A DNA stretch of 64,000 bases, taken from Stenocarpella maydis. Taxonomy: Eukaryota; Ascomycota; Sordariomycetes; Diaporthales; Diaporthaceae. Every line of letters begins with the position of its first letter. Within the stretch, counting starts at the first letter, position 1. The notes beneath the pieces were generated by a model. That model was not told where the DNA came from. It made no database searches and saw nothing but the letters and a program-made list of their open reading frames with translations. Made by a program: the position numbers and the translations under genes. The stretch spans positions 87,600-151,599 of the forward strand of contig NQMI01000111.1 of NCBI GenBank assembly GCA_002270565.1, written 5' to 3'. Shown here in pieces: positions 26,901-64,000 of the stretch.

Positions 26901-29345
26901 CGGCAGAGTTTGTCTCCAGAGTCAACCGCCCAGACATGATGGCCGCAGCAGCCGGGCACCTAGTGGACGGCAGGCCAATCTTCCCAGGCTCCGCCTTTTG
27001 TGAAATGGCTTACGCAGCTGCCGAGTACCTTGTGCCCAAGCATCGACAGCTACCCTCCGCTCCGCACATTTCCTCCCTGGTCCTCGGCAAGCTCGACATG
27101 CGTCGCCCGCTGATCATCACCACGGCGGCGGATGACTCCATAGTCCGTACGCGGACCGTCTGCAGCAGCGAGGGCGTCAGCGTCGAGTTCTTCCACGAGG
27201 CGAGCCCACACAATGTGACACCGCTGGGCAGCGTCGTGATCCGCTTCGAGCGCAGCCCCTCGCTGCGGGCCAAGACCGGCCCTACGGCCGCGTTCTTAGT
27301 GCAGGCACGCTGCGAGGCGCTGATCAAGGCTGTCAGGAGCGGCGAGGAGGGCCACGTGCTACGAAAGTCGCTGCTATATCAGCTCTTTCAGCGCTACATC
27401 GGCTACTGCAAAGGGTTCCAGGGCATCCAGGGGTGTTTCCTCGGCGGTGGCGTGACCGAGGCGGCATATGTGATCCGGCTACCGCCTAGTCCCTCGGCAA
27501 CGGGCGACCGTGCAGCATTTAACATGTACTGGTGTGATTGTGTTTTTCAGTTTCATGCTCAACAGACACCCGGACGGTCCCTCGGACAAGGCGAGCATTG
27601 CCGTTGCTGTCGAGGAGATCCTCTTTGGGGATGAGCTGAACGCCGTCGACACCTACACGGTTTATACACACATGACCCCGACTGATAACGGCCATGTAGG
27701 TGACGTGTACGTATTCCAGGGCCAGAGGTTAGTGGCGCTGTGCTCGAACATGGTATACCACACCATGGCATCTGGACACGCGAAAACAGGACGACAGCCA
27801 CCCCGATCATCTACTCAGACCGAGACTCGGCACGAAAATTTTGCTACACCTCTCGCCTAGCCGAAGCCCCAGCCTCCAGTTCAGCCTCTTGCTCGTGTAG
27901 AGAGTTATGCCCAGCCCAAGGCCTATCACCAGCCACAGCCGCTGTCTGAGATGCAGGCTCCATCTCAACCCCGAGCAAACAACATCGACGCGGCACAGGG
28001 TGGCATGGAACAAATAGCTAAACAAAAGGAAGACGTTTCGGGACTCATTCTTCAGCTCATTGCGGCAGAAACTGGCTGGCCCGTTGAAGACCTGCACGAC
28101 GATACGGCTGTCGCCGACTTGGGCGTTGACTCGCTAATGAACATTGCGCTGGTCTCCAGGCTCCGCTCAGAGAAGAGCATCGACATATCGCCTGCGAAGT
28201 TCCGACAATGTGTTACTGTGGCGGATATCAGGAAGGCCTTTGGAAACTCAGCAGGCGATGTCGGTCCGGAGCAAGGAAACAAGAAGAGGCTTGTCGAGGT
28301 GAACAATCAGGAGTCCGATCTCGCCCACAGCTTAGACAGCTCGAGCACCCTCTCCTCAAACTCCCTGTCGGACAGAAGTGCCAGTCCGAATGCCATGACT
28401 TCTAACACAGACCCCCGGTCAGTGTCGTCAGGGACATCCCCAGTCCCCGAGATGGTCGATATGAAAGGCTCCATGGGCCTCGCACACACCGCCGCCGACG
28501 AGGCGGCTGGGATGCCCGACGAGCTCAAAGACACCACAGTCGAGGTGTTCCTCATCCAAGGCGAGCCAAGCCCTACCGAGCCACCGCTTTTCCTTGTACC
28601 CGACGGTTCCGGCTCGATCGCCTCGTTCCTCCAGCTCCCCAACCTCCAACGCAACATCTGCGTCTACGGCCTGCACAGCCCATGGGTGGATAACCCAGCG
28701 GGCTTCACCTGCACGATCGAGCAGGCCTCGCAGCTGTACGTGGCCGCGATCCGTGAGCGGCAGCCCCACGGCCCGTACCTCCTGGGCGCCTGGTCATCGG
28801 GCTGCGTGTTCGCGTACGAGGCGGCCCGCGTCCTGTCTGAGGACCACGGCGAGGAGGTGCTGGGCCTCATCATCATCGACATGCACCGGCCCAAGCCCCT
28901 GCTCGACTGGATCAAGACGACCAAGGAGCTGTGGGAGTACTGATGCGAGACGACAGGGCTCGCCAACGTCTTTGCTCCCCTGCCCGATGCCCAGGACCTT
29001 GAGAAGCACCTGATCTGTAACTTCCGGGCGCTGAACCGCTACAACCCGAAGCCCATGCGGCCCGGAAAGGCACCCAAATACGGCACCTTGATGGTGTGGG
29101 CCAAGAAGGGCATGGGCAATGGTTTGAAAAGAGAGGACTACGCGGACCTGCCCGACCCGCTCGAGATTGGGACATGGTTCTGATTCGACAGGACTGATTT
29201 CGGCCCAAATGGCTGGGACGAGCTGGTAGGCGATAACGTCCAGACGGTGGCGATTGATGGCCACCACCGGAGCATCATGGTGCCACCTAATGCGGGCTGC
29301 CTTGTAAAGGTCATTGATGAGGCCCTGGAAAGGTTCTTGGCCTAG
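23925..29345 (+). pseudogene. Non-reducing polyketide synthase relic (KS-AT-PT-ACP-TE), N-terminally truncated
   Basis: Homology starts abruptly at the KS beginning ([11 protein letters not shown]), so the SAT domain expected in this class is gone. KS: active Cys in VDAACGSSA (24411), ELHGIG and NINHGEAG histidines. Five KS introns still have good splice sites (24603-24671, 24754-24851, 24894-24990, 25090-25192, 25291-25352). AT (25848-26640): GHSIGEYAAL is kept, but the GQGSQ and GFHS regions are deleted. PT (about 26640-27780): GHLVDGRPIFPGS with catalytic His and a WCD motif. ACP: DLGVDSLMN, Ser codon 28131. TE: GAWSSG. In-frame stops are at 24141, 25827, 25845, 27858, 28941 and 29181. Frameshifts are near 26635 and 27550. 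The order SAT-KS-AT-PT-ACP-TE is known for aromatic polyketide synthases; the former product cannot be told. Intact introns suggest recent death. Confidence 0.9.
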
Positions 29346-29540: not shown

Positions 29541-31501
29541 TTATCGCAGCTCCCCCTGCACCACCTCCTTGTCGAAGTCGATGAGAGATCCAGGCATGCG
29601 TCCGACTCCAACCCGATTGTAAAACGTGGACGCCTCTTTACCTTGTGCCTCTGTGGGTGTAACCAGAAGAACGTAATGAGTCCTCGGGTTTTGCACCTCA
29701 TCTTTTGACTTGCCCAGAACCACACACTTCAGAAATGGCTCTAACTCATCCTTCCTGTCAGGATCATCCAGTATGATGCAGCCGCTGGCACTACTCAACT
29801 TCCTCGCTGCCTGCAAGTCAAACGGACGTCCATACACACTCAGTTCCAATGGGCACGTCAAGCAGTCCCCGCTGTAGCTCCAGGAATTCCCACTGTCAGA
29901 CGACCATCGCGAGCATATGTCATATTCCTCCCACTCCACCTCGTTGAAAGGCAGATTCAGATAGCTGATGGCCCCTTTGTAGGCCATCCACGACCACGAG
30001 GGCGGCGGAATAATGTCTAAAGCCCCACCTTTGGGCGACTCGAATTCGATTCTTTTCATCCCACTCGGTGAGTCTTCTGCGCGCTGCCACAGCAGACTTC
30101 GCCATAACAGGCCACAGGCTCCATCATCAAGGACACCAAACCCTCCTCGGACACTGAAACTGGATATCAGGTGTTTCTCGATACCCGCAATAGCGACTGG
30201 TCGGTCGGCATCATACGACAGCTCCAAGCGTGAGTACTTCGAGTATAGATCTTGGTACAGGCGAATCTTGCCTCCGTGAGTCGTTTTCATTCCAACTTCA
30301 GGAAATCTGGAGTCACCGAGGAATGAAGCGAGTTTACTGGATTCTCTTTGCTTAGCCCCATGATTCTTGTTCACAGAGTTTTGAAAATACTTACTTGTTC
30401 ATTCTCATGGTGGTCTCGCATCGGACACCGGCCCCACACTCCCAATACGTCTGCTTCTCGGTGAAGAAAATCGTACGTCGAGCCAGTACTCTTTCTTGCA
30501 ATACCCAACCTCTCCTATTGAGATGACTGTCCAGTGCATGTTGTTCAAAGTTGTCAATGAAGTCGCATGCATATATGGGAGGACGGTCAGCGATATTCTG
30601 ATGAATCTTCCAGCAAGCTCTCTCATCCCTAGGCTTCATGAATCCGTCGTGTTGGCCAGCAGCACAACTTGCAGCCAGTACGCAGTACGCATTTCGAAAT
30701 ATACTCTCCATATGCTTCGCCTGTTCATTGAAGTCGCCCTCTGGGCCCTGAATTATGCAAATTGAATCGATCCATAAGTATTGTTGGTACAGGCTTCTTG
30801 TCACCTCCACCGCGTCTTGGAACGTCTGCGGAAGATTTTCAAGGAGAATCCCCTGGCGGTGGTGGGCTAGGTTCTCTGGAGACGTGCAGAAATGCGACGT
30901 GCGGTTAGGCCCCCAAGGATGAGACAGAGCAAGATACTCGAATGAATCGCCATCCTGGGTCTCATAGAGCCTCACTCCGGCGTGTCCCGTCTTGCCCACG
31001 TCTAAGAGTCTTGTGGGAAATCGAGAGGTGGGATCCTTTAAGGGCCTGCAGTCTTCGTGGCGCCGATCGCACTCGTCTAGCCAGTGGCGAATTATGGTGA
31101 AATGTGCTTCACTTCCAACTCGTGGAGGTTTGGGCAGACCAACTTGGGGCCAGGAATCCAAGAAATTGCTCGATCCGGGCTCGAAATCTCCGAATCGGCT
31201 CTGTGTTAGTAGCCTAGCTGCCACCAATTGTCTGGGCAACCATTCAACCACCGCGCCGGCGAAGAAACTCACCTGAGTCTTGATGGCAGGCCAGAAGGCT
31301 GATGACCGGTCGGCGATTCAGTTGTAAGTCGGAATCAACTAAGTCGAATACAAGAACTAGAGCTTGGTCGGAAAATAAGTTCTTCCCAAAGCGCCACCGC
31401 ATGTTACAGAAGTCACAAATACTAGCATCCCTTCTCAATTCCCGCAATCTGTCGGTGATTTGGAAACTTTTTGTATAGAAGTCCATTCCCTCACATTTCA
31501 T
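29541..31501 (-). CDS. HET-domain (heterokaryon incompatibility) protein
   Basis: Three exons, 31501-31273, 31187-30395 and 30306-29541 (introns of 85 and 88 bp), give 595 residues. The first intron has branch CTACTAAC. The second uses GTAAGT to GACTCCAG, the one choice found that keeps frame and rejoins FPEVGMK. The HET domain shows its three blocks: EYLALSHPWG (about residue 160), LWIDSICIIQ (about 220) and RRGWVLQERVLARR (about 310). The C-terminal half carries LELSYDADRPVAIAGI and WSWMAYKG, the usual post-HET segment. A CxxC (CDFC) lies near the N-terminus. HET proteins trigger cell death on fusion of unlike mycelia or act in fungal innate immunity. It sits next to two kinase-like genes. 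Confidence 0.9.
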
Positions 31502-36126: not shown

Positions 36127-38254
36127 ATGTTGATGCCGAAGTTAACCATCACGAGCGACCAGTCGCAGACTGGAAGAACCTCAAAGTCATCCAGCTCCAG
36201 TACAGGCTCTTCTCCAACCTGTTCGGATTTTCCGTCCTCTGCTACAAACGCGACACATCTTTCCGTACGGACCGAATATACCTCTGACGGGTTTGAATTT
36301 CTTGATGATGGAGACGATAACTTGGGAGTAAGTTACATTCATGTATCCCACTGTTTCTCAATATGTATTTCTTAAGGCCATGGTGAAATAAACCAGCTAA
36401 GAGTTTCTTGTCGCAGTCTGAGTCCCAGGCCGCACCAAGTAGCGATATCCTAAATGGGGTGGAAAGACCATCGGCTAAATTCCAGGACATTCTATTGAGC
36501 TCTCTAATAGAATGCGACGATCAGGGGAGAGATAAAGGATTCTTCCCCAAAAGCACATTTACAGCGCTCATCACTCAGGAAACTGTCGGCCAAGAGTTGC
36601 ACCGTGGGCGCGAATTTCGACGTCTGGGTTCTGCCCACCTTGACAGAATTACGCGGCGTATTTGCAAAGATTCTTCGTTCAAGAAGATTTTTGCGCTCTT
36701 GGTGCTTGCAAATGAGCTAACTCATATTGAAACATTCATTAAAGACGACATAACGGACAATGATCTACCTCTTTGCAAGGTCTTCCTCCCTGGGTCCCAT
36801 CTGTTTGGACTTGGTCGGAAGGGTAACCAACACTATGCGTTGGGCTGCTTTGCGTCCTGGACCCATTCATCCATCAGGTCGTTCGAGGAGTGGCAGTGGA
36901 CAATGCTGGCCCCCACTTTTGAAAAAGGTCAGCGCAGAGACGTCAAGCATGTGGTTTTGAGCCACAGACATCCACTTCCCTTCACAAGGGACAGCCGCCT
37001 TGATCCGGACGATAAAACCTCACGGCATGGCGGTCACAGCACCGTTTTTAAGGTCCGAATCCATCCAGATCACCATAACTTCAATACAACAATGGTAGGT
37101 CGATCGCTCATGAAGTCCCCATAAAATTCCTTCTGTATAGCATAGCCGGCTCACATTTCTAGAAGGAGGGAACCAATGCCTGCACCAGCTTCGCTGTGAA
37201 ATGCCTCTCCTCTCGGGACATAGCCCGTTTCAAACAAGAAGTGGATATGCTTACCACCTTCAGCGGTGATTCTGATAAACACCTCATCTCCTTACTGGCT
37301 ACATATCAACAGGGGAATGAGTACTACTTGATTTTCCCCTGGGCCGGTGGGGATCTGAGGTCCTACTGGAGGGACATCAACCCCGAGCCCACAGCAAACC
37401 AGGAGACAATGAAGTGGCTGGCCGAGCAATGTTATGGACTCGCTAAAGGCCTTTACAAGATACACCAACACGAGACGAGATATTTGAGGGGGTCAACTGA
37501 TCATCCATTTATTCCAAAGGAGTTTACCGATGCAAGCGCTCGAAGTGGATCGCTGAAGCTTTTCGGGCGCCATGGAGACATCAAGCCGCAGAACATCCTG
37601 TGGTTTGATGGACAGAGCAATCAAAATGGAAGGCCAATCTTAAAAATCACCGATCTAGGACTGGCTGAGTTCAAGACAAGTATTGCCCAAATATACAAAT
37701 CGCCTGATAAGGTCTCGATGACCGCAGCTTACCGTCCGCCAGAATACGACACAGAGAACGGGAAGGTCGGTCAGTCTCATGACATCTGGGCTCTTGGGTG
37801 CCTATACTTGGAAATGATTGCCTGGGTTCTCGGAGGCTGGAAGCTGGTACAAGAATTTGAACGGCTGCGCGTCACTGAGAATACGGGTCCTCGCTCACCC
37901 GTGGCTGCGGAGGGCACGTTCTTCAAGGTGAATAGTATCAATGAATATGGCGTGTGGGAAGTTGTCCTCAACCCGACGGTCAAAAATGTAAGTTGATCAG
38001 TCTCCACGAATCTCGCTCAATACCTATTCCGAAGTACTCGATTCGATGTTCACATAGTAACCTCCCTGTTCAAGTTTATCGAGAGGATGCATAGCCTTCC
38101 AGCCTGCGGCAAATATTTGCATCTGTTTCTGGATCTTATCAAAGAGGAGATGCTCGTAATCAAGGCAACAGACTCAGCCGAGAAAAGCCGTATAAGCGCT
38201 GCTGCGCTCACATTCAGACTTGGCAGCATGATTAAACTACGTACGCATACATAG
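36127..38254 (+). CDS. Protein kinase-like protein with atypical catalytic motifs (B)
   Basis: Four exons (36127-36327, 36417-37094, 37163-37987, 38075-38254; introns of 89, 68 and 87 bp) give about 627 residues. The start is the first ATG after an in-frame stop and may be revised. The N-terminus is Ser/Thr-rich, then a domain like that of the neighbouring paralogue precedes the kinase: glycine-loop remnant GGHSTVFKVRI, SFAVKCLSS with the ATP Lys, YYLIFPWAGGDLRSYW at the hinge, RHGDIKPQNIL catalytic loop, ITDLGLAEF (DLG in place of DFG), TAAYRPPEYD and SHDIWALGCLYLEMIAW. The last exon uses acceptor TTCAAG and continues the helical C-lobe (FIERMHSLPACGKYLHLFLD). Divergently placed paralogue of kinase-like A. 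Activity uncertain. Confidence 0.82.
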
Positions 38255-38421
38255 AGCTAGGTTTGGGACTATTCGCCGATATGTGAATCTTGGAGAGAGT
38301 CCCAGATGATGGAAATGTGTTTTCAGCTATCTCCTTGACAGAAATCTTCTGCTCTCAATTCGTTATCTATTCCTATACCACGGCCATAATAAGTGCCTGC
38401 CATTAGAAGTAGGCAAGGTGA

Positions 38422-40346
38422 TAAGTCGCAGCACCGTTTCACGCACCACCCCCTTCAGGTATACTCGATTTTTCGACCTCCTTAAGAACCAACCCCTATT
38501 TCAACACTTAATTTCTCAATAACCATTAAAGCTATTCACAATCAGATAATAACCCCTCGCTCTCTAAAGCGTGCACTACAATACATTCCATTTCCTTAAC
38601 CTTATCGTTATCCCCTGACTCGTCGTCTTCAAGTGTTTTAGGGGGCTCCTCCTTTAAGAGTCCCATTATAGCCCTTTCCTTTATAATAGCCGCAATACTA
38701 ATGAAGGCTTTATTTGGGTCCGGGACCACCCTCCTCTTCTTCTTCAGCTTCTGCTGCTCTAGGGTAGCTATAAGAACCTGATTTTCAGCCTCTATAGTAA
38801 TAGCACAAGTAGCTAACTTATTAAGCCCCTTGCAGACCTTGCGAAAGAGGAGGCAAATAGTAGGGGATTTATAAATATTGCTAATGCTATATAATTCCGA
38901 TTGAATTACTATAATGTGCCTAGAGGAATATAGTATTTTTAAATTAATTACAGCTAATTGCAAGTTAATTATATTATTCTCTAGCTTGCTAGCATTATTA
39001 ATAATAATAGTATTATTATTTTAGGCTATTAGTTGAGAGTTTTTACTTTTATTTGGTCCCTAGGCTAAATTCCTATTATAACTTATACCTTCTTAATAAT
39101 AATAGTCTTTATAATGCTATTCTAAGACTTTTTATAAGTATCAAGGAAGAATTCTTTACTAGATTCCTTAGTGCTATACTATATTACTAACAGGGCTAAA
39201 TTTTAATAATATTACTTCTTTAAAAGAGAGAATATATTAATGTTAAGGGGTTAAAGGATGTAGGAAGTATGGGCGGGAAGAAATATAGCCTAAATCTTTA
39301 ATTTAAAGTAATGCTATATAAACTCTTTAGTAATATGCAAGATATAGCTATTGAAAGAGGAAACCTATTATAAGGGATTGGAGGGATAGGTATTTAGCTT
39401 GAATATTATTATAAGCTATAAAAGACCTATCTAATTATTCATTCAGCCTATTTCTAAGGTTATAAATAACTAATTTCTAAATTCTTAAGTTTATTAAAGG
39501 AAACTATTATTATTATACTAATTTGCCCCTAAAGATAACGAGAGGGCTGAGAGCATTACTACCCTATTAATGCACTTAATTGAGGTATACTATATGCGAT
39601 TAAGGGCTGCTTTTTTAATAATTAAATTAACTACTGAAGAGCCTATTATAAGGTGATTCTTCCTATTGTCTTCCTAGAAGCCTATCTTATTAGCATTATG
39701 CTAGAATTTAAGAGGAATATTAAGGAGCTTAGGTTTGTTAAGGCGGTTAAAAAAGAGGTTAATATTCTTATATATAGCTGCATTTATATATTTATATTTA
39801 ATATATATAGCCTTAAGGGTTTTTATTAAGGGATTTCTTATTAGGAATCATATTATCTAATTCTTTCCTAGTGGGTGGTAGTTGGTAATATTGGGAATAG
39901 TATTATTGGTGATATGGGTTGTAAGGCGCTGGAGAGCTGTATGTAATGGGGGATGGCTCAGACGGCCCTGAAGAAGGGCCCAGCTAGCCAAAATTGACTC
40001 CTAAGTATATGATAGCTTCTGGTGAGTTAAATTATACTCCTTACGAGTGGGCATTCCTTGAAGGCGATGGTGTAGGCTATACCTGGAAATATAGTGGTCT
40101 CTAGATGCTTGTTGTTGGGATGTCCTATTAAGGAGGTTAGTAGTAGCAGCTAGGTATTGTGAAATAGAGATATAAGGTATACTGGAGTATAGAGAAGAGG
40201 ATGAGGATTTAAATGGTATAATTGATGAGAATATAGCATTTAAATAGAGGTTAGAATCATTAAGTGTAGTAGGGGTGGTTAAGAAATCGGTGTCTGAAAC
40301 CGGATGTGCGGGAAGGGGGTGGTGCGTGAAACGGTGCTGCGACTTA
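38422..40346. mobile_element. Pogo/Fot1-like DNA transposon, RIP-damaged
   Basis: Perfect 33-bp terminal inverted repeats lie at 38424-38456 and 40312-40344, starting AGTCGCAGCACCGTTTCACG. Each is bordered outside by TA (38422-38423 and 40345-40346), the target duplication of the Tc1/mariner-pogo superfamily. The body is 1921 bp, the usual Fot1 size. The 38532-38963 minus-strand frame resembles the C-terminal tail of Fot1/pogo transposases. The rest of the interior is extremely AT-rich with TA-rich, CA/TG-poor composition and dense stops, as expected after RIP. The perfect ends against a decayed body suggest recent insertion followed by RIP that spared the GC-rich termini. Confidence 0.88.
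38532..38963 (-). pseudogene. Transposase C-terminal fragment (pogo/Fot1 type)
   Basis: A 143-codon frame is left inside the transposon. Its Leu/Lys-rich segment (IATLEQQKLKKKRRVVPDPN, then KAFISIAAIIKERAI) matches the basic coiled tail that follows the DDE domain in Fot1-like transposases. The catalytic part upstream, towards higher coordinates, is destroyed. It has no independent function. Confidence 0.6.
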
Positions 40347-44212: not shown

Positions 44213-44449
44213 CTAGTCGTCGGTGTAAAGGTCCGGGTAGATGATCCCCGAGTCCGGGTCAGGCTCTGGGTACACAATACCATCGTCGACGTCCGGCTCG
44301 GGGTAGACGATGATGTCGTCGACGTCGCCTTTTTTGGCATTAGCAAGGGTCGGCAGAGGTCAATGTAGGTTCGCTCACTACATACCGGGAACTGGGCTGG
44401 CCAGCACGCTCATGGCTGCTGCCATGAGAATCAAAAGTGCAGACTTCAT
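44213..44449 (-). CDS. Candidate RiPP precursor peptide with repeated I-(V/I)-Y-P core
   Basis: Two exons, 44449-44386 and 44328-44213 (57-bp intron GTATGT...AAAAAG), encode 59 residues. A clear signal peptide, MKSALLILMAAAMSVLAS, is followed by PVPG and then three near-tandem units: DVDDIIVYPEP, DVDDGIVYPEP and DPDSGIIYPDLYTDD. Each unit has an acidic spacer and a hydrophobic core with one Tyr-Pro. Secreted multi-core peptides with Tyr in each core, beside UstYa/DUF3328 genes, are the hallmark of ustiloxin/phomopsin-type RiPPs. Unlike those, no Lys-Arg Kex2 site separates the cores; the only basic residue is Lys2. A TATA box sits upstream. The alternative is a small secreted effector unrelated to the cluster. 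Structure is seen; function is inferred. Confidence 0.72.
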
Positions 44450-44563
44450 GATGACGGTGGATCGCTTCTCTTGTGGCTTTGAGCTGGGCGAGAACCAGTC
44501 GAGGAGAGCCGATGGGGGATGGCTGTCCCTCGGGTTGATTTTGATGGAAAGAAGCGCGCAAGG

Positions 44564-44572
44564 CTTTATACG
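44564..44572 (-). promoter_or_regulatory. TATA box of the candidate precursor gene
   Basis: The minus-strand string gcgtataaagcc lies about 115 bp upstream of the precursor ATG, a normal spacing for a strongly expressed fungal gene. Confidence 0.45.
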
Positions 44573-45007
44573 CCGCACCAAAGACCAAGCGTAAGCGGCA
44601 TCGTGTCCACATCCACCGGAACATTGCTACGCTGTAGTGCCCCACAATGGATCGATACACATGTGTGGGATGCAGAGGCCTGCTCGGCGGTTCTATCTGT
44701 AGGCAACCCCTACCACTCAGGGCTAGGAACGAAACCAGCTACGCAGGAAGAAAGCTAATGCAATCCTTCCGCTGACAAGCGTATTAGACATCATATGACA
44801 TGACGTCCACATCAAGACGAGATATGAGTTCGTGGATGGCACGCAGCCGAGACGCTCTCCGAAGTCATCCTGTCGCCCCTTCTCCAAGTCTCCCGGACCG
44901 CCCTTCATCCCAACCTTTCTCACTCTATGCGCATCCGTTCTCGGTTGCGGGCTATCATCGTATCAGTACACATTCACAATTGGAGCCACACATCACACCG
45001 CTGGAAG

Positions 45008-45283
45008 ATGTCTGCTCATGAGAAAGAGCTCCTTCTCGAGGGCGATTGTGATGATGCCAGCAGTACTGTTGCTAGTCACTATGAAGTCAACAACCACACG
45101 AGGCCATCCTCACGTCGACGGTGGATATGGGCAATAGCTCTACAAGTCTTACTCATCACCATGTACACTGCCGTTTCCTACGCGGTGATTCGACACAGCG
45201 CCGGTCCGGGATCTGAGCCCGATATTCACGGTATGTTTGTCCAGCGCCAGCCCTCACTTCCACACCTGAGCCCCCCCCCCCCC
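45008..45283 (+). CDS. UstYa/DUF3328 family protein A, 3' part lost in the assembly gap
   Basis: Exon 1 (45008-45230) starts MSAHEKELLLEGDCDD, a short polar cytoplasmic tail, then SSRRRW and one membrane helix (IWAIALQVLLITMYTAVSYA) followed by a luminal stretch ending PDIH. It stops at a GTATGT donor (45231), the usual first-exon pattern of DUF3328 genes. The intron runs into a C13 tract and 20 N (45284-45303). The two HxxHC motifs that should follow are not found on the far side, so they fall in the gap or are missing. If intact it would be a type-II membrane oxidase that cyclises or hydroxylates peptides in the secretory pathway. Family assignment rests on the N-terminal layout and neighbours only. 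Confidence 0.55.
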
Positions 45284-45303
45284 NNNNNNNNNNNNNNNNN
45301 NNN
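45284..45303. other. Assembly gap (20 N) after a C13 tract
   Basis: N characters occupy these bases directly after a 13-base C run (45271-45283). The number of N is probably a placeholder, so the true amount of missing DNA is unknown. The gap interrupts UstYa-like gene A. Confidence 0.95.
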
Positions 45304-45491
45304 TTGACAGAAACGTAAATTTACATTGCTTTGCGCCACAACAACAACCACATTGGAGGCGAGAAATTGGCAGAAAGGTATTCAATTCAATTCATGACCG
45401 TCAACTAATAATACTAAAGCCTCAAGAATCCGCACCCATACATGTCCACTTCGATGGCCGACAGGCTCAAACACTAGACCAAACCCTCCCT

Positions 45492-46804
45492 CTATTTCGG
45501 CACAGCCTGGATGATAGAGTCCTGGCGGCGGGGCAGGTAGGTGTGGACCTGCTGGATCTTGAGGCCAGCCTGGTCGAGGAGGGCAGTCCACTCCTTGATT
45601 GTACGCTCGCGCGAGCCCAGCGACGCCATCATGGTGAGATCGATGGTGGCCGCCTCCCAGGTGACACCGGCATCGGGCAGTACCATCTCGTCGATGAGGA
45701 TCTGAGACTTGGGGCCTGACGCCGCGATAAGCTGCCTCAGGATGGCGACACACTTGTCGTCGGGCCAGTCGTGCAGGACCTGGCGCAGGTAGTAGAAGCG
45801 GGCTGCCTTGATCGGCTGCTCCTGGAAGAAGTCATGGCCAAGGGCCTCGATGCCCTCGGGGATGGCCATGCCAGGGGGGAGGTGGGCCAGGGCCTGCGGG
45901 AGATCCTCGAGCACGAGCCTGCCCTTGAGCTGCGGGAAGGCGGCGAGCAGGGCCGCGCACTGGTGGCCGAAGCCGCCCCCAACGTCGACGAGGACGTGCT
46001 GGCCGTCAAAGCCAGCCAGCTCCCGCTCGAGGGGGAAGACGGTGAACCAGGGGACGCCGACGGCGCCCTGGACCGTCATGACCTGCTGCAGGGGGCCGAA
46101 GCGCTCGGGCTGGGTGGGCAGCCACATGAAGGCAGGCAGCTCGGTTGGGAAGGCCTTCTGGAACGCCGTGTGGGCGGCATCGGTGACGTCCTGGTACTTG
46201 GTCTCGGCCAGGAAGGCCGGGAGGGCCTGGAAGACGGGCCCACAGTTGTCAAAGAAGTGGTAGATGCCGCCCCGGTAGCCAGGCTGTGCCAGCGTCCTGG
46301 TCAGCGCGTTGGCGGCGAAGGAGTCTGGGCCCGCCTCGGAGACCATGCCAACAGACGCCAGATAGCGAAGGATGCGGCCTAGAGGAGATGACGCGACGTC
46401 GGGATCAGTCCCAATAGTTCATCCTGCGGCGGGTAGCGACAGGCAATATAGCGGGACTCACTAGTCAACAACGGCGAGGCGGCCTTCTTGGACGCCAGGT
46501 CAGCTGACGTCAAGGGCGACTCGGAGCTGGCCAGGGTCTCGAAGATGTCGAGATCCTCGGCGATCCGGGCTGCCGTGATCTCAAGGTGCTGGGCCAGGTG
46601 TCAGCAGTCTTCTTGGCTTCGGCCTCTCGTGTCTTTCCCGGATGAGATGGATTCCGCACATACCAGTCCTGAGTAGCGAGACAGGGCGTCGTGCGGGCTC
46701 TCGAGCTTGAGCTGGAGGCTCCGCAGGAAGTCGAGCACCTTGTGCCGCCCTGCAGCATCGGCCTGCAGCGCGGCGGTCTGGATCTGCTGGAGCAGGCTAT
46801 CCAT
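45492..46804 (-). CDS. O-methyltransferase 1 (SAM-dependent, plant-COMT-like family)
   Basis: Three exons, 46804-46664, 46588-46462 and 46378-45492 (introns of 75 and 83 bp), give 384 residues. The N-terminal helical dimerisation region includes ITAARIAEDLDIFETL, and the second splice rebuilds SRILRYLASVGMVSEAG. The SAM site is VLVDVGGGFGHQCAALLA, followed by LVLEDLP, the DFF motif and YYLRQVLHDWPDDKC with the catalytic-base His. A C-terminal SREERTIKEW-like segment (SRERTIKEWTALL) is also typical. The enzyme methylates hydroxyl groups of small molecules. Within this cluster it could modify a hydroxylated or tyrosine-derived residue of the peptide; that is inference. It diverges from O-methyltransferase 2. 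Confidence 0.92.
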
Positions 46805-47744
46805 CTTAGCGTGCTTGAGATGTTTTCGACGATGTGTTTTGAGGGAAGAAGGGTCCGGGGCAGTCGTCCTGGCACCTCAGCGACTGCATCCCATCACCAG
46901 CCGCGGTCAGTGGATATAAATGTGACTAGCTTTTTGCCAACGCCGTGGAGGAGCCGTTGCCAACGCCTCGCTTGGCACCGGGCTATTCCTATTAGCGTGG
47001 AAGGATCCTGTAGCCGCTGACTGCGTCTCGCAATACGACCGTTGGTCGGTTAGGCGCGGGGTGAGATGAATGGCTGCGTTGCAACAGGCGCAGTGTTATT
47101 GATGGCATCGTCAATATTACACTAGCGCTGAATCCTCGGCACATGCAACCAGGCACCGGCTCGACCGGCTACAGTCAAGTCGATGGCCCCCCGGGCTGCA
47201 TGAATCCTTCAGGCTGCCAACATCGAGATGGCATGGTGCAGAAGGATCTACCTCTTTCGGTGGGCAACTATCGAAAGCGTCACACCCTCGACGCAACAGT
47301 TGTGCGCCTCAGCAGGCTGGTGGTAATGGAGATGGATGGAAATCCTAGAGGAACCTCCAGCTTATTAGGAACATTAATTGCAGGGGTAGGTCCACTTAGG
47401 ATGACTATATGCTAAGCACTTACAAATGTTGGTCGGATAGTTGGAAATCTGCATAATTACAAACGACACCCAAGCCTCGGGAATCGCATATCGGCAGCAA
47501 CGCCCACCGTGAATGGCACTCCGTAAGTGACCACTCCGTCAGGTCCGTGGGCAGAACCTCCGGGGATAAAGGCGTGCCACCTAGGGACGTGGCTTTGGTA
47601 AATCGAGATATACGGCAGCAGTCTTCCATTCCGAGGTTCAAGCCGAACAGGTCATTGCCTGCATCTGTCGGCCGTCTAAACGGACAGCCCGCTGCATCAA
47701 TCCTTCTGTACTACCCCAGCTTTCAGCCTTAGTTACTTCTAGTT
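46805..47744. promoter_or_regulatory. Bidirectional promoter region between the two O-methyltransferases
   Basis: It is 940 bp with no gene, read outward on both sides. A CGG-N5-CCG site (47157-47167, cggctcgaccg) fits a Zn2Cys6 dimer site in form; no cluster-specific regulator gene is seen in the window, so this is weak. A TTTATATC string near 46913-46920 could be the TATA element of O-methyltransferase 1. Confidence 0.35.
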
Positions 47745-49163
47745 ATGGATTCGACAATTTCCAATGCGAGAACAGTGCAGCTCGCCGCATCGATCTTGCA
47801 GCACACCACCGAGATCGAGACGTACCTCGCCCAGAACAACCTGCCCAGCCCGTCCTTCGCACCAGGAACCCCACCGAAGCTGCCTCTTCCGCCGGGGATA
47901 CAGAGCTCTCTTGATGCTGCGTTGTCGGCTGTGGACGAGCTGCAAGCCCTCCTGCTGGGACCCCTGGGGAAGCTAGTCAGCCAGGTTAGCTATGCTGTAC
48001 GATCGACTGAGTGCCTGACGATCCCAGTTATGTAGGTATTTGCAGCTAATTGAAATACACCAAACCAGTACGACATGGCCAGCCTACACGCCTTGTACAG
48101 GTTCAAGGTCCCGGAAGCCATACCACTGGATGGCGATATTCCCATCCGGGAAATTGCACAACGATGCAACGCACGGGAAGACCCCATGACGCGCTTGTTA
48201 GAGCACGCCGTGGCCAACTACGTCCTCGCCCGGCCGCGCCCAGGCCATGTCGCGCACACGGCCCTGTCAGCCATGCTGGCCACTTCGCCACCCCTGATGG
48301 ACTGGGTCGGCAGCGCATGCGAGGACATGTGGCCAGCCGCACCTCACGTGGTGACTGCGCTGAGCAAGTGGCCTGGCGGCCCCATACTCCCGCACCAGAC
48401 AGGACACAATATCTCAGAGCGCACCGATGTGCCCTTCTTCAGGACCCTGGCTGGCGATCCCGAGCGAGCCGCCCGGTTTGCGGGGGCCATGAGCTTCATG
48501 CAGAATATGCCCGGCTTCCAGCCGTCTGCCGCCCTGGACGCGTATGACTGGGGGGCTATTGCCTCGGCATCCGAGACTGCGGTGGTGGTAGACGTCGGGG
48601 GCTCGCGCGGGGACTTTGCCTTTGCGCTGGCAGACAAACACCCTTCCCTGCAGGTCGTTGTCCAGGACATGCCAGACGTTGTCGAGCAGGGGCGTGTGAT
48701 CCTGGCGGGCCGTGACGTCCCTTGTAACGTGACGTTCCAAGCTCACGACTTTTTCGGCCCGCAGCCGGTAAGGGGAGCAGATGCGTACTTCCTCCGCATG
48801 ATACTTCACGACTGGCCTGATGAGTTGTGTTTGGAGATTATCCGCAACATAATTCCAGCGCTGAAGCCTGGAGCGCGACTCATTCTCAATGATCATTGTA
48901 TTTCTTCCTCTGAGGAGGTTTCGCGATATCAGGAACGACAAGCCAGGTAAGCATGCAAGTATTCCGGGATTTGGTCGAATGGAGAACTAATCGGAAACAG
49001 GTGCCAGGATATAGCCATGATGGCCATGTTCAATAGCAAAGAACGGTCGGAGGTCGAGTGGAGGAAACTCATAAAAGAAGCAGATCCCAGGTTCAACTTT
49101 GCATCCATAAAGCGGCTGGCGCCATCACCATTGGCAGTGATGGAAATAGTTTGGCTGCCTTGA
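47745..49163 (+). CDS. O-methyltransferase 2 (SAM-dependent)
   Basis: Three exons, 47745-47984, 48069-48946 and 49001-49163 (introns of 84 and 54 bp), give 426 residues. The N-terminus (MDSTISNARTVQLAASILQH) and the following proline-rich stretch are typical of fungal O-methyltransferases that open with a helical bundle. The SAM motif is VVVDVGGSRGDFAFAL, followed by LQVVVQDMPDVV, HDFFGPQPVRGADAYFLRMI, LHDWPDELC with the catalytic His and LKPGARLILNDH. The C-terminus ends SPLAVMEIVWLP. It is clearly different from O-methyltransferase 1, so this is not a recent tandem duplicate. Its 3' end lies 45 bp from the convergent UstYa gene B. Substrate unknown. Confidence 0.92.
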
Positions 49164-49208
49164 AAAAAAAAAAATTATTTGATGTACTTTAGAGCTCAAT
49201 AGACCCCT

Positions 49209-49974
49209 TCAAGAATGCGGCTTCTTGGTTTCCCACTCTGTTGTCCATGAGAACAATGAATCCCAGTCAACGCATTGATGCTCTGTGCCAAAACCATGGA
49301 CCCCACCAGCTTCATCGTCCTTGACCTCCACCGTCAAGTCTGCATTGCACATCAGACTCTGCCGAAGCAGATCAATGCAGTGTCGTATATGCGGTGGCGA
49401 GATCATCATTGGCAAATCACCGTCTTTGAGTGGGGTGTCACCCGCCACTGCAACATCGTGAACAGCCCAGTACCCTTGGCGGATTCCATTCTGGTCAATT
49501 GGATTCTGTTAGTCGTCTCTGAGCCCAGAGCGATATGATCCATGGGCTCCAGGTGGAGGAAATGAGCATACCAAGCAGTGCAGGAGATGGAAGACAGAAA
49601 AGGTCGATCGGTGGGGCGCGATAGTGGGATGAGTGAAGTAGCCGGCTTGTTCAGGGAACAGCGTGTCCCAGGCGGCATCGGATTGCGGGCTGCTCTCAGC
49701 GAAAGTGCGATTGTACGTGAAAGTGTATCGACTGTGATCCACTGTGATCATGGTCAGGACTTCGTGCCACCTACGCCGACCACTCGACGTGCTTACACGA
49801 GGGTACTCCTGATACAACGGATTTTTCGGCCGATGAACGTCCGAGAAAGAAACTCGTTGTCGAAAACACCAGGATTGCGACTAGGACGAGCACAGGTGAT
49901 CGGCCTGAATTTTTGGGTTGAGGGCCAGGATTGCCGTCAAGCAGGGAATACGGCGAGCGAGAGAACCACTTCAT
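49209..49974 (-). CDS. UstYa/DUF3328 family oxidase B
   Basis: Three exons, 49974-49797, 49741-49572 and 49490-49209 (introns of 55 and 81 bp), give 209 residues. There is a short cytoplasmic N-terminus (MKWFSRSPYSLLDGNPG), one membrane helix (SPVLVLVAILVFSTTSFFLG), then the family body: YTFTYNRTFAESSPQSDAAW, first HxxHC motif in VFHLLHC, IRQGYWAVHDVAV, second motif HIRHCIDLLRQSLMC, and VHGFGTEHQCVDWDSLFSW. Both HxxHC motifs, thought to bind copper or another metal, are intact. UstYa-type enzymes make ether or C-C crosslinks in ustiloxin-type peptides and also hydroxylate or chlorinate in other pathways (for example cyclochlorotine), so the family alone does not prove a RiPP. It is probably in the Golgi lumen. 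Confidence 0.9.
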
Positions 49975-50356
49975 TGTTACATCCAAGACACAAGAAAGAT
50001 GCTAGCAGAGTCCAGAAAATTGAGTGTGCAAAAGGGAAATGGAAATGGACCACCAAAAGTAAGCGAGGCGAAGCGAAGGGCCGAGGTACATGAAAGTGAG
50101 CCCCCTTAAAACAATACATTGGATATATGAATATGGAAATATTAGATTCTGACGTGACTGCCAAGTGACCATGATTTTGACTTGAATGAATCGTCGAAAC
50201 CAGATCACGTGTTACGATCAGGCATCGAGGTATCGAGAAAGAATCTTGCCACAAACAGAGAGCTGTTGACTGGCGTGCTTCAATTCGGTAGGCAGCCTTG
50301 ACTGCAACATAATCAAGTATCTAATTACTAGTTAGGAGTTATTGAGGAGACCCGAC
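49975..50356. other. Intergenic region
   Basis: It holds the promoter of UstYa-like gene B and the 3' end of the monooxygenase gene. No further feature is seen. Confidence 0.5.
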
Positions 50357-51689
50357 TCAAAGCCAAGCCTGATGCGCCTCCTTCGCAGCGTCATACGAAT
50401 ACATCCAGTTCTGGAACTCAGGGTCAAGCCATGGGATAACAAACCCCGGCTTCAACTCGGCATTCATGAGCTCCTGATCCCGCTTCTGCTGCTCGGGCCC
50501 GTCGTGCATGCAATACACATCTCGCAGCTTCATGCTGGCCTCCTTGAGTCTACGGCACCGTGGCTCGCGTATCTCTTGGAAGATCCGTAGAGCTCGGGGG
50601 ACGTCCGCGCCTCCGGCGACGTGCGAGAGCAAGGCGCCCAGGGCAACTGCATCCTCTATTCCCTGCGCTGCCCCCTGGGCCAGGTACGGAGTCATGGCGT
50701 GCGCTGCGTCGCCCAGCAGGACAAAGCGGCCGGACGATGAGCCCCAGCCGTCATCCAGCAGCGCCGTGGCCGTCGATGTCCACTTGACGCAGCCGACGGA
50801 GAGGTCGACGAGCCTGGAGATCCTGGGGTCCCAGGACTGGAAAACATGCTTGATTTCCTCCCTTGTCGCCGGAACCGGGGGGCCTTGCACGGGGGCGTCC
50901 TCGGGCTCAGGGAGACCGCCCATCAGATTCATGTGCTGGGCTGGCCCACCCGGGATTGTGCCGATGGCCATCGTGCCGGGGCCCAGCCACCAACGCGTCC
51001 CCGGGTCCCCGGCCAGATCAGCAAGGGAGGCATCTTCTCTCAGGTCTGACAGTGCGATCTGGCACGAAAAGACCTTGTGCCCGAAGTGAAAGGGCGGGTC
51101 TGGCCGTCCCAGAAGCAAGGCGCGGCACTGCGAGCCCTCGCCGTCTGCGCCGACGACAAGATCGGCTTCGAGCACTCGGCCGTCCGCAAGAGTCACGGAG
51201 GGCGCGTCGAGGTCGATCGAAGTGAACGTACAGCCGTACTCAATGACACAGCCGGCTCCCACCGCGGCGTCCAGCAGGGCGCGGTGCAGAGGCACGCGCC
51301 CGACGCTGAGGTACGGCAGCCCGTACTTGGCTTGCATGTCCGGTACCAGGCCCATCCGCTTCAAGACGGTGCCCTCGGAATAGCCCATGAGCGTGATGTG
51401 GTGCTCCTCGAACGCCTCTCTTTGACAGGCTGGCAGCATGCCCAGAGACTGGAGCGCCCTGCACGCATTGGGAGGCAGGTGTATCGCCCCGCCAAACTTG
51501 ATTGGCACACTTTAGCTGTCGCCCGGCATTTGCGATGGCGGATGAGATACATACGTTTTGGAACTCTGGCATGCGCTCAAGAATGGTTGTCTTGTGACCG
51601 GCGCGTTGCAGTGCCAACGCCGTCGTCATGCCTGCGAGACCACCGCCGATAATAACGACTCGGCATGACTTGGTGCTGTTGAGGGACAT
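50357..51689 (-). CDS. FAD-dependent monooxygenase (salicylate-hydroxylase-like)
   Basis: Two exons, 51689-51555 and 51496-50357 (58-bp intron), give 424 residues. The start is the first ATG; an upstream TTG is ignored. FAD motifs: CRVVIIGGGLAGMTTALAL (GxGxxG), VVGADGEGSQCRALL (the DG motif that contacts FAD and NAD(P)H) and FVLLGDAAHAMTPYLAQGAA (GD motif). The intron acceptor CAATCAAG joins ERMPEFQN to FGGAIHLPPNACRAL, the usual post-Rossmann block. Class A flavin monooxygenases hydroxylate aromatic or amine groups. In ustiloxin and related pathways flavin monooxygenases oxidise peptide side groups, so a tailoring role here is plausible but unproved. Confidence 0.92.
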
Positions 51690-52380
51690 TGTGATTGGTG
51701 ATTTCAAGTAGCAGATCGATATAAGCGACGAGCTACTACAGAGGTCAAAATCTTCACGGCTTTGGGGGCCGCGCCACGGTTAATAGTATTCCCATGCGCA
51801 TCACAACATGACTGGCTGCTTGTAGGCAGGAATAAGTCTTTCGTGGGAGCCTATCTCGCTAATTACATATTTGTCTAGACAGATGGTAACTGTTTCTATA
51901 AATATTCCAGCGTAGCATTTCGTGGGATTTGGCCAGATTCCTTGGCGCCGATAAGTAGCCCCTCTTAGAAGCAAGGGTCACGGAGAGCAGGGTGGGTTGG
52001 AAGGAATGCCCTAGTCTTCGATTCACTCATTCATCAGCCGATATGCGATTTGCAAGCCGTTGATATCGGACTGTTCAGATTAGCCCAGGTTCAGTACCCT
52101 GCAACCTTTCAAGTTTCAATGTTATTAGAAGACGACGGATGTTAGAACGCACAGCATTACCAATGGACTTTAGACGTCCTCTTGACATGACACAGAGGTC
52201 ACAAGTCGCGTAGAGTTCGACACATCCATTCTTTGAACTTCGAAAAAAGGAGGCAGAAGCTCTCCGCGGCTTCGTACTACCGGCACATGCGGATGGAAAA
52301 GTGTATCTGATTCTGAGGGGGTAGGACTTGGGGAGTGAGATAAACCGATATTCAATGATTGATTAGCTCTGGTTCCCGTA
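51690..52380. other. Intergenic region between monooxygenase and amidase genes
   Basis: It holds the monooxygenase promoter. A cttatatcg string (minus strand, about 51716-51724) may be its TATA element. No gene is seen. Confidence 0.5.
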
Positions 52381-54321
52381 CTATGGGTATAGCCTAGGGC
52401 CAGCAGCCACGGGTCGAAGGATCCCCTGCTCCTCCAGCTTTTCTACCAAGTCGGCAAGGACGTAGTCGCAGCCCCTAGCCATCCTGATTGCCATTGACAC
52501 AGGTAGATACTCGACCTGCAGGGACTTTGTGCTGTTATATGGCACCTCGCCGATAGGAACGACAACCTCAGGTGCGCCAGCAATAACAGCGACCCGTGAG
52601 TCGCTCATGCCCAAGGGTGGGCTCGTGGGGGGCTCCAGATACTCGTCACGGTACGAGGGCTGGCCGTCCTTAAAGAGATAGGTGTACACACTCTCGGAAC
52701 AGGACTCTGTGTCGTGGCGGCCGTAGCCCTCAGTGGTGTACCACTCCGTGAAGATGGAAATGTTGCGGAGTGCCTCGGCGTAGACCTCATCGGGAGCGTT
52801 GACCTGCCCCCACTGCCAGCGCACCAGGGGGCCCGGGTTGATATACGGCTGGCGGCCGCCGTTCTTGGCGGCGTAGTCCTCGAAGAAGGGCTTGCCGAGC
52901 ACCTGCCACTGGTCGTGGGACACGAAGACGGCATATGTCAGGTTCAGCATCTCGTCGACGGCAGGCGCACTGCCAGCGGTGTCGGCCCACAGCTGCGTGT
53001 AGTTGCCCGGGAGGGCCTCGGTGCCGAGGAAGCCACCTAGCTTCTGGACAAAGGTCTCCGCCAGCGCTGCAGCGTCGGCGCCTGTACCGCCGGTGGCGGG
53101 AGAGCTGTAGAGCTTCTTGGGAAGCGCGGTCCAGTTTGAGTGCAGGCTGGGATAGTAAGCCTTCGTTGCCTTGGCCCAGAGGCTTCCGCTGCGGGCAAAC
53201 AGGCCGGCTGTGTCGGAGACAGGGCTCAGTGGGATGACATGGTCGAGTGAGATGGCACCGGTCGAGGGTCTGTTGCCAAAGATGCCTTGGGCGCCTGCGG
53301 GACCACGCATCGAACCGCCAGTATCGCTGCCAACGGACAGATCCAGCCACTCATAGGCACCTATGCCGGCACCCGGCCCAGTGGAAGAGCCGCTGGGGTC
53401 TTGGTAGCCGTCACCACGAGGGTTGAATGGGGCATGTAGGTCGACCCAGTCAGCAGTAGGCCTGTCGCCATTGGCAAATTGAACGGTTCCCATCTTGCCG
53501 ACGAGGACGGCGCCGAGGTCGATGAGACGCTGCACAGCCGGAGCTGTGTGGTTTTGAGTGCCGTAGTGATAAAAATAGGCGCGGTTGCCGCCGCTGGTAC
53601 TGATTCCCTTGACGTGGAAGATATCCTTGACGCCGAAACGCAGTCCGGCAAGGGGTTGCTCCTTGGTAGCGCTGTAATAGAGCCGGGAGGGCACAGCGAT
53701 ACTCTTGGCCATGACGTTCTCTGTGACAGCCGGCAGGGACATGTAGGCACCCTGCTCGTCGCTGATAATCCCCTGGACGAAGGCAAGGTTGTTGTCATCG
53801 TACAGTCGGTGAGCCTTATAGACATATCCACTGTAGGCTGAGACGAAATAGGGTCCCTTGGGAAGAGAGGGAGTGATCGTGCTGGTCACGACAGACGGCG
53901 ACTGTGCCGATGCTTTGCCGGGGGTAATTAGGAGCCTGACCTCCAACTCACTCAGAACAGATTGCGCAGACGCGGTATCGACCTCAGATACGTTATTGTC
54001 GCCCGTGGGCTGGAGGTAGACAGTCTGAAGGAACGCCAGCTGGAAGACGTCGTCCATCTCATCGTACTCAGCGGTGATATCAACAATTTGCTGGGCACTG
54101 AAGCTCCCCGATGAGGTCTCAACAACGGTCAGCGGAAATAAGTCGTAGCCATCGGTGGTGGCGGCGGCGATCGCTTCACGAGTGTCATTGATGTCGAGAC
54201 GGGCGATCGGAGTGCCCCCGGCGTAGTACGGAACTCCTTGTAAATCGATGACACGCCCCTTGTCGACGGCCAGCCCGGAGGCATGGCCAATGATAGCTAG
54301 ACTGAGCAGGGCAGACCGCAT
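52381..54321 (-). CDS. Secreted amidase-signature hydrolase
   Basis: This is a single exon of 646 residues, intact. The signal peptide [18 protein letters not shown] is followed by a fungal-specific N-terminal domain of about 200 residues. The amidase signature follows: Lys of the Ser-cisSer-Lys triad in [16 protein letters not shown], the glycine/serine loop [18 protein letters not shown], and the nucleophile region [16 protein letters not shown]-glycosylation sites (NHT, NWT, NYT, NIS) fit secretion. These enzymes cleave C-N bonds of amides. Next to the candidate precursor it might trim or release a peptide, or it may be an unrelated extracellular enzyme at the cluster edge. Confidence 0.9.
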
Positions 54322-61338: not shown

Positions 61339-64000
61339 GGCCATGGTTTAATCTCCCATTGACGGCGCATGCGTGTTTCCTTTCGCCTTTGGCGCTGGGG
61401 ACGAGGGGTGGGTTGGCCAGGTCGATTCGGGCCACGATGACATGAGACATTTGGTGATTTTGTTTAATGATTTCGGTGCCGCGTCGACTCATGAATTCTT
61501 CGTCTTAAGGGCCGTCTCTGTCTGCATGGATGGGTCGCAACGGGTCAAGGGCACCAAGATACTAATTGCACACCCCTATTTGGCTTCTGTTGGTTCTGTA
61601 TTCGATTGTGCAGGAAGTGTGGAGAGGTTGTGTACCTATGATGCTCTCTTGTAACGGGGCGTTGTGGGCGGCTCCACACTTGGATACCATTCTTGCCGAG
61701 CCACTAGAGTAGGTAGAGTATGGTGCGCAACAGCAGCAACTTTCCAAAAACCCCAAAACCACTTAGAATCACACCCACCTAATCAGACCCCTAAGGTCAT
61801 CTAAATAGATATACAGATAGAAACAATCAATTGCCCCTTTAGAGTCATTAACAAGTCTATAATTCCACCAGCTAATTAAAGCATAAAGCATGCTAATAGG
61901 TAAGGCTACCACTTAAGCTCAAATAGCTATAGCAGCCCTAATTCTAAATCGCTTTCTTTCCATTAAAAACAACTACTTTTATATATATTAAAACACCCTA
62001 AATAATACCCTATAGCCCATAAGACTATTCCCATTTAATTCATTTTATACTAAAGTATACCCCTATATACTTTTTTTTCTTAAAAATAGTATTAGTTTTA
62101 TTATATTAAGGTATATTATTTCATATAGCTATATTTATATCGCTCTAGGGGTCTATAGGGGAGTTTAATGCGCTAAGCTTACTAATGTTTCTATAGATCC
62201 TTCTGCCCCTATATAGCATAGTATAGGCCTCTACCACCATAGGCAAGACTTACCAGCCTCCCAAGCAAGCCCTTAAAATAAAGGATATTAATACTAATCC
62301 CGCTAACCCTATTTAAGATAGTATAAAGCTAGTTATTAATAATAATTAAACTACCAACCTAAAGGACCTTATCCTATCCCACCCCACTATAAATAGCTAT
62401 AATAAGGAGGATCTTGAGGAGGAGGGCTCTAGATATACCGCTTTACCCATATATAATGATAATAAGAGCACTATAAAGACTCTATAGGAGCATATAGAGT
62501 ATACTAAGGCTAAGGTAATCCTAAAGAAGTTTGATTCCCTCCATATATAATAGGCTAACCCTCTCCAGCCTAAGAGCTAGAAGTATAATAGTAATCTGCT
62601 TCCTCTAGCCCCAATTAGCATTAATATTAGTAGTATGGATTAAGAGGTTACCTTATACTACCCTATAAAGGTCTTTAAGCAAAAATATAATAATATTACT
62701 TATATTATTTAGAATACTACTAGTTAGATAATATATATATAATCTAATATAGGTCTTTATATATATATACTAATATTATTATAGAAGATTAAGTATCTAC
62801 TAAATATTACCTATATTAGCTAGCTTAATAAGCCTAATTACTATAAGTTTAAGCCTATTTATTAGCAGTAATTCTTAGGCATTACTAGATATATCTTTAT
62901 AAAGCTGGATGGCCCTATATAGGGCCCCTATAAGACCTATAAGAAGTCTCCGCAGCCGTTCTAGAGTTATATATCTAGTTCAGCCCTATTTAATAATACC
63001 TATACTAATTACTAGGCTAAATCAACCGCCAAAGACTACAGCTATAAGAGTATAGAATTCTATACCCCTATATAAAGCTATACTAATATATTTACAGCTA
63101 TGCTATATAAGACCCCTGCTACCATTAAGCTAGATAGTAATAATAATAATGATTTAGTAGAGAACAAAAGTAATTAGGAGCTTATAGTCCCCACTAAGCA
63201 TAGCTAGAAGTCTTAGGGTACTCGCTAGAGCAGTTTAAAGCGCACTAAGGCTATATAAGCCCCTTTAGCCCCCATTAAGCATTATGCCGTGCTAACCACC
63301 CCCACTATATGCCGTACTCCCGTGATAGATACTGCCAGACTTATAACCAGCCCCTAATGGGCTTACCCGCTCCCATATAGTAGTATTTAGGCCCATACTG
63401 CTATTACCAATCCCCTATAGGCTTATCCAATCCCCACCACCCCTAATTGGGTGCAGTTAGCTAGTAATAAGTACATTCTGGCCCTATCTAGAGAGCTCTA
63501 TTATAAGTATAACTCGCATAGCCTATTTAATTATAATCCGGCCTAGGGCTATAATAGTATAACTAGTATAAATGGGGACTATAATAATAAGGAGTGATCA
63601 TCTCTATAGAGATATAGACAGGCATATTTAGCATTTTTCAGGCATTTCCAAATGATACCCAAGGGTTCTCAAAAGTCTTTAGGTCTATAAACAAAGAGTT
63701 ATATATAAATAGGTTTTAATAGGGTTGGATACATCTAGAGAGCTCTATACAGGGTCAAATAAGGCCCTACAACAAGTCTCCATATAATACTCCTATACTA
63801 TTAGATAGCTATAATACAAATAATACTAATTAATAATTTCATATATAAAAAGTAGTAAAAAATATTTTAATTATTTATTAATTATTATTATTTATTTTTA
63901 TTTTATTATTTATAAAATAAATTATTTTATATTTACTAAAGAATTTATATTAATATTATAATTAATTTATTATTTTATAATTATATATATTATCAAAGTA
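61339..64000. mobile_element. RIP-like AT-rich repeat block, no genes
   Basis: Beyond about 61750 the sequence turns TA-rich with frequent TAG/TAA in every frame and very few CA/TG dinucleotides in long stretches (for example none in 62281-62340). Islands such as gcccctataagacctataag resemble former coding DNA. The final 200 bases are almost pure A/T. This is the footprint of RIP on transposons. No terminal repeats or intact domain could be assigned, so the family is unknown and the block continues past the window. Confidence 0.65.

Follow-up and report, generated by a model that had tools for sequence, protein, structure and literature searches.

Does a region of some 10 kb in the genome of the ascomycete Stenocarpella maydis encode a pathway for a ribosomally synthesized and post-translationally modified peptide (RiPP), and which of its genes would take part? 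The region lies at positions 44,213 to 54,321 of a window of 64,000 nucleotides, by which we mean the whole stretch of DNA that was analysed (contig NQMI01000111.1, positions 87,600 to 151,599 of the forward strand; all coordinates below are those of the window). An earlier note, made from the letters alone, had read the region as a new cluster of the UstYa, dikaritin-like type, with a secreted repeat peptide gene, two UstYa genes, two O-methyltransferases (OMTs), a flavin monooxygenase and a secreted amidase in one pathway. Our analysis makes it probable that a UstYa-type, RiPP-like cluster is present at 44.2-50.0 kb, with a conserved core of the precursor gene, one UstYa gene (UstYa1) and an O-methyltransferase. 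The genes, their conservation, their partial linkage in relatives and the intact HxxHC motifs of UstYa1 are established, and the conserved gene set is well supported.

The precursor gene and its repeats

The precursor gene contains one intron of 57 nt (GT..AG) and encodes a product of 59 aa with the C-terminus LYTDD. Following a leader, three repeats of 11 aa are spaced by 33 nt in the DNA and share the consensus D-x-D-x-x-[IV]-[IV]-Y-P-[ED]-x. The N-terminus is hydrophobic (mean Kyte-Doolittle 2.3 for residues 3-17) and the leader appears signal-peptide-like, as judged from hydrophobicity alone rather than by a predictor. A protein search (5.8 billion proteins; 8 candidates) returned eight relatives with E values of 2e-19 to 5e-11, so that the gene is real and no chance open reading frame (ORF). 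The search detects relatives sharing five-residue words only, and further relatives may exist. Four of the eight come from Sordariales (Rhypophila, Echria, Podospora didyma and Lasiosphaeria), two from Xylariales (Parahypoxylon and Xylaria), and two are metagenome proteins. A search of the own genome (53.5 Mb, 312 contigs) gave no second copy, the sole match being the precursor itself. Between 40 and 58 kb no open stretch of at least 40 aa carrying a 5-mer three times was seen, a crude filter that skips the known precursor too. The secreted repeat peptide gene thus holds as a two-exon gene with a hydrophobic leader and three repeats.

Conservation was assessed on nine precursor sequences, that of the window and its eight relatives, with the repeats positioned by Y-P. 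In all nine the repeat part has 37 aa with a spacing of 11/11 and contains no K or R, hence dibasic KR, RR, KK or RK is found inside it in 0/9 sequences. The 27 invariant alignment columns all fall inside the repeat part. Every one of the 27 repeats carries I/V at positions -2 and -1 of Tyr and D/E after Y-P, and position -2 is Ile in 23 of them. In the 7 sequences whose N-terminus is leader-like, mean identity is 88% (81-100%) in the repeat part, whereas it is 51% (27-88%) in the leader. Within a species, repeats 1 and 2 agree at 85%, and a given repeat is 85-89% alike between species, while repeat 3 forms a distinct conserved version, with 85% identity across species versus 45-46% when it is compared with repeats 1 and 2 of its own species. 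On balance, constraint on an ordered segment describes the repeat part better than a shuffling array does. The lack of any basic residue and the fixed length and order rule out that cores within it are cut out in the manner of Kex2.

The repeats might nevertheless be cut apart by a protease other than Kex2 into individual short cyclic peptides, as in multi-core dikaritins, instead of forming one 37-mer. We regard this as quite possible, if a little short of an even chance. The repeat architecture speaks for it, as does the fact that repeats 1 and 2 resemble each other within a species about as much as the same repeat does between species, and multiple cores are typical of dikaritin precursors (PMC9233826; papers are cited here and below by PMC number from excerpts of their text). 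However, gains and losses of copies would be expected in a free multi-core array, whereas copy number, order and spacing are constant in 9/9 sequences and repeat 3 has kept its own version across species.

Enzyme genes and their linkage in relatives

UstYa1 belongs to the DUF3328 family; a segment near its N-terminus is hydrophobic, and it has two HxxHC motifs, HLLHC and HIRHC. Its match to PF11807 (E 1.1e-23) was obtained with a gene model of 214 aa that has five extra residues and was also queried for the homologue, solved-structure and alignment work; the model of 209 aa corrects the acceptor site. Among 53 matches the best was from Diaporthe amygdali (88% identity over 72%). Of the 23 sequences aligned (that of the window plus 22 of the 53 matches), 22 have both motifs intact, the remaining one having HIRRC for the second motif. 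The sequence search for solved structures gave 0 matches. In the predicted structure of the Podospora relative of UstYa1 (27 sequences; mean pLDDT 75, pTM 0.56) a helix spans residues 30-55, presumably the hydrophobic segment in the membrane, and the motifs are placed in helices 118-141 and 157-173. This predicted arrangement resembles that of the copper hydroxylase CctR of cyclochlorotine biosynthesis, with an N-terminal helix and HxxHC(x)nHxxHC in two helices, and work on CctR identified DUF3328 as a family of binuclear copper proteins (PMC12435403). The substrate of CctR is a non-ribosomal peptide, whereas the neighbour of UstYa1 is a ribosomal peptide gene.

Only one of the two UstYa genes claimed earlier stands. 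The other is a fragment that runs into a poly-C run and a gap of 20 N; it has no PF11807 match and a genome search returns only the fragment itself. The DUF3328 count at the cluster is therefore one intact protein plus one N-terminal fragment cut by the assembly gap. As a side observation, the genome holds 62 PF11807 matches, counted exon by exon and with those of the window included. Contigs C20, C67, C219, C240, C150 and C23 are among those that carry them, and several are tightly grouped (e.g. C240:316-331 kb), suggesting further UstYa clusters in this genome.

Two distinct methyltransferases are indeed present; both match PF00891 and their identity is 28%. Each resembles a solved enzyme of the methyltransferase fold. 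The closest solved relative of OMT1 is LepI (E 9e-84) and that of OMT2 is PDB 7bqj (E 1.8e-45), which we take to be PdxI; LepI and PdxI are pericyclases. OMT1 differs from LepI in the alignment by HDW at the position of LepI's RDF, and because of this replacement it may be a true methyltransferase, a methylating cousin of LepI. The highest-identity OMT2-like match, among the matches listed, came from Diaporthe amygdali (83% over 69%). Our literature search returned no paper naming LepI and UstYa together.

Co-location of these genes in relatives was deduced from equal species (or source) together with an equal size of each match's longest contig. The input consisted of 8 precursor matches, 53 UstYa1 matches and the best 120 of 136 OMT matches, the latter sorted by BLAST into 31 OMT1-like and 89 OMT2-like. 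At least 11 contig sizes bear two or more gene kinds. A contig size is shared with UstYa1 by three of the eight precursor matches, with an OMT by at least five, and with at least one of these by at least five. Of the 53 UstYa1 matches, at least eight share a contig size with an OMT2-like match and at least one with an OMT1-like match. Precursor, UstYa1 and OMT2 occur on one contig size in Podospora didyma and Echria. In Rhypophila (312 kb) precursor and UstYa1 are accompanied by an OMT1-like match (63%), and in Parahypoxylon and on a 6.7-kb metagenome contig precursor and OMT2 occur together. Six further cases hold UstYa1 and OMT2 only, namely Diaporthe amygdali, Cytospora schulzeri, Lasiosphaeria, Xylariaceae FL1651, Periconia macrospinosa and a 2.7-kb metagenome contig.

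The weight of this linkage rests on locus tags and short contigs, as the shared size of large contigs proves little. Consecutive tags were found for precursor and OMT2 in Parahypoxylon (AAE478_008743/008744), for UstYa1 and OMT2 in Diaporthe amygdali (N8I77_006591/006592), and for a protein with UstYa and HET domains and OMT2 in Cytospora schulzeri (VMCG_01226/01225). The UstYa1-like segment and the HET domain of Cytospora schulzeri are annotated as one protein, perhaps a fused gene model. In Podospora the tags of UstYa1 and precursor are two apart (519590/519592), where the numbering is assumed, not known, to follow gene order. From these co-occurrences OMT2 emerges as the conserved partner of precursor and UstYa1. 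OMT1 is a possible cluster member, and a variable one at best, because the OMT1-like VMCG_09989 of Cytospora schulzeri lies on another contig size and not beside the UstYa1 of that species.

Several points weigh against a conserved cluster with a crosslinking UstYa1. The shared contigs were deduced from sizes and not by reading those genomes themselves. Precursor and UstYa1 occur on one contig size in three Sordariales species only, and 3/8 precursor matches have no partner. The precursor of Lasiosphaeria is found on two contigs, the longest of which differs from the contig of UstYa1 and OMT2. Parahypoxylon gave no UstYa1 match, Rhypophila no OMT2-like match among the matches listed, and Diaporthe amygdali no precursor match, a gene of 59 aa being easily left unannotated. 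Within the gene set no protease or transporter was identified. The Podospora UstYa1 model found no solved-fold match in a structure search (best E 1.1), and DUF3328 enzymes are also described to hydroxylate and halogenate (PMC12435403). The shared contig sizes nevertheless support the assignment to the UstYa type made in the earlier note. Its expectation that relatives keep the precursor beside a UstYa gene is mostly borne out, by three of the eight with one tag pair two apart, the rest having no UstYa1 partner.

Proposed pathway and comparison with known systems

Crosslinking and its site, methylation, processing and product are what we infer from these genes. The 59-aa precursor would enter the secretory pathway via its signal peptide. 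UstYa1 would act as a membrane-anchored, lumen-facing copper enzyme that oxidises the three [IV]-[IV]-Y-P sites, and each Tyr ring would most likely be joined to the beta-carbon of an Ile/Val at position -1 or -2, in the order known from epichloecyclins. Such a Tyr-to-Ile/Val crosslink is the most economical guess, because in every repeat the two residues before Tyr are I/V. The methyltransferase would add a methyl group to a phenol or to a carboxylate of a side chain or terminus. As the product we expect the acidic peptide of 37 residues, kept whole and crosslinked up to three times, or fragments of it made via another protease. The product of the gene set is probably a modified peptide unlike the familiar ones, likely acidic and with putative Tyr-Ile/Val crosslinks and O-methylation.

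Cyclization through Tyr is reported to depend strictly on DUF3328 proteins in the dikaritins, i.e. ustiloxins, phomopsins and asperipin-2a (PMC7329392). The present locus resembles these in a secreted Tyr-repeat precursor, a UstYa/DUF3328 gene close by and a methyltransferase nearby. It differs in lacking Kex2 sites and, on the contig, a tyrosinase, in having a single intact UstYa, and in a fixed three-repeat segment conserved across orders. Compared with the five-gene dikaritin definition as excerpted from PMC12048977, a precursor with leader and repeated core and a methyltransferase are present, and the tyrosinase is not; the later definition, in which the class enzyme is a DUF3328 protein carrying two HxxHC motifs next to a ribosomal precursor, applies to the locus. 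The term dikaritin-like is only partly apt, given the lack of Kex2 sites and of a tyrosinase on the contig. In the core, the known dikaritin precursors were set apart by the descriptions in the papers, by the earlier reader and by our literature search, not by alignment.

In epichloecyclins the crosslink involves an N-terminal Ile and an internal Tyr, and their precursor GigA shares the Ile-before-Tyr core order with the repeats described here (PMC9233826). By its description in the same source, on which this comparison rests, GigA is likely a Kex2-processed multi-core protein giving cyclic nonapeptides, whereas the present precursor has no dibasic site and repeats of 11 aa. Kex2-processed repeat proteins (KEPs) likewise have a signal-peptide-like leader, internal repeats and in 22% of cases a DUF3328 gene close by (PMC7329392). 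Unlike these, the present precursor has repeats without dibasic separators and no basic residue in 9/9 sequences, and falls outside the KEP definition.

The claim of a new core fits our searches. The core letters were not found in open-access PMC full text, subscription papers and supplements being outside the search, and with looser core letters no title on a fungal peptide appeared among the matches listed. Two large surveys of fungal precursors, in their excerpted text, picked sequences whose repeats are separated by Kex2 sites (PMC7329392, PMC6339444), and a precursor family without such sites points to UstYa substrates invisible to Kex2-site filters. KEP types are mostly unique at the genus level (PMC7329392). 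The 27 invariant positions in nine sequences, from the window's Diaporthales genome, Sordariales, Xylariales and two metagenome proteins, suggest a conserved biological role. We put forward, as somewhat less likely than not, a separate class of UstYa peptides, in which a base-free acidic segment of 37 residues would be kept whole, be rigidified by up to three Ile/Val-to-Tyr crosslinks, be conserved across several Sordariomycete orders and serve the fungus's own biology rather than act as a fast-evolving toxin. If true, this class would have escaped surveys requiring Kex2 sites. With a precursor of 59 aa, one UstYa and one methyltransferase, the system is also a very small one in which to learn the effect of a single DUF3328 enzyme on a ribosomal peptide.

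Neighbouring genes

Table 1. Features of the window at and near the proposed cluster.
Feature	Position	Strand	Remarks
Precursor gene	44213..44449; exons 44449-44386 and 44328-44213 (stop included)	minus	splice model; 8 relatives
N-terminal fragment, possible second UstYa	45008..45232	plus	75 aa; one hydrophobic segment
Assembly gap	45284..45303		20 N, after poly-C run
OMT1, LepI-like O-methyltransferase	45492..46804	minus	384 aa; three exons; PF00891
OMT2, O-methyltransferase	47745..49163	plus	426 aa; three exons; PF00891
UstYa1 (DUF3328/PF11807)	exons 49974-49797, 49741-49572, 49490-49209	minus	209 aa; three exons
FAD monooxygenase (PF01494)	50357..51689	minus	424 aa
Amidase (PF01425)	52381..54321	minus	646 aa; hydrophobic N-terminus
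Non-reducing-type polyketide synthase (PKS) pieces	23931-28943	plus	about 15 kb from the cluster
HET-domain gene	30394-31317	minus	

The flavin monooxygenase and the amidase named in the earlier note are both present (table 1). The amidase is the sole candidate of transporter or peptidase type seen beside the core, where part of the small ORFs of the region was scanned. The FAD monooxygenase matches the 4-hydroxybenzoate decarboxylase 8gsm nearly end to end (residues 4-423 of 424, E 2.4e-96) and the vanillate 1-hydroxylase 8x38 (E 1.2e-57), and none of the 25 NCBIfam families listed for it reached the cut-off. Decarboxylating 4-hydroxybenzoate/vanillate 1-hydroxylases are catabolic. By this resemblance to a decarboxylating 4-hydroxybenzoate hydroxylase, the FAD monooxygenase is probably not part of the pathway. 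That the whole 10 kb forms one pathway, with both flanking enzymes tailoring the peptide as well, is therefore unlikely in our view, although the two genes directly adjoin UstYa1 on the same strand and flavin monooxygenases and peptidases can occur in ustiloxin-type clusters (PMC12048977). From the inventory of the earlier note, precursor, UstYa1 and OMT are linked in relatives, while the second UstYa and the flavin monooxygenase find no support as members.

No Condensation domain of a non-ribosomal peptide synthetase (NRPS) was found on the window's contig at E 0.001 (43 matches in the genome). None of the genome's 27 PF00264 (tyrosinase) matches lies on this contig either. Likewise no PKS occurs within the 10 kb, but the absence of a PKS core does not extend to the whole window, which contains PKS fragments at about 23.9-28.9 kb. 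It is distinctly improbable that UstYa1 and the methyltransferase have a different substrate, e.g. a polyketide, beside a peptide with a role of its own as signal or effector: DUF3328 proteins such as CctR do serve non-ribosomal pathways too (PMC12435403), PKS fragments are not far away, the closest solved relatives of both methyltransferases include small-molecule enzymes, and UstYa1-OMT2 pairs exist where no precursor was found, e.g. in Periconia (Pleosporales), yet the reading frame shifts between the PKS pieces and one of them has a stop codon, UstYa1 or an OMT shares a contig size with at least five of the eight precursor matches, and every repeat keeps Tyr after two beta-branched residues, as a UstYa substrate should.

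The PKS pieces comprise a KS with an internal TAG, and AT, PKS_DH_N, ACP and TE in shifting frames, and at their 5′ side they adjoin the end of an ABC transporter encoded on the opposite strand. A SAT domain was not seen in the PKS stretches scanned, no search being aimed at it. Either they are a remnant left by rearrangement, or they belong to one gene interrupted by many introns. The window also holds a HET-domain gene (table 1), a domain likewise annotated in the UstYa1-like protein of Cytospora schulzeri. The G+C content falls to 0.356 at 38001-40000 and to 0.314 at 62001-64000, compared with 0.470-0.634 in the other 2-kb bins, possibly reflecting repeat-induced mutation or old transposons.

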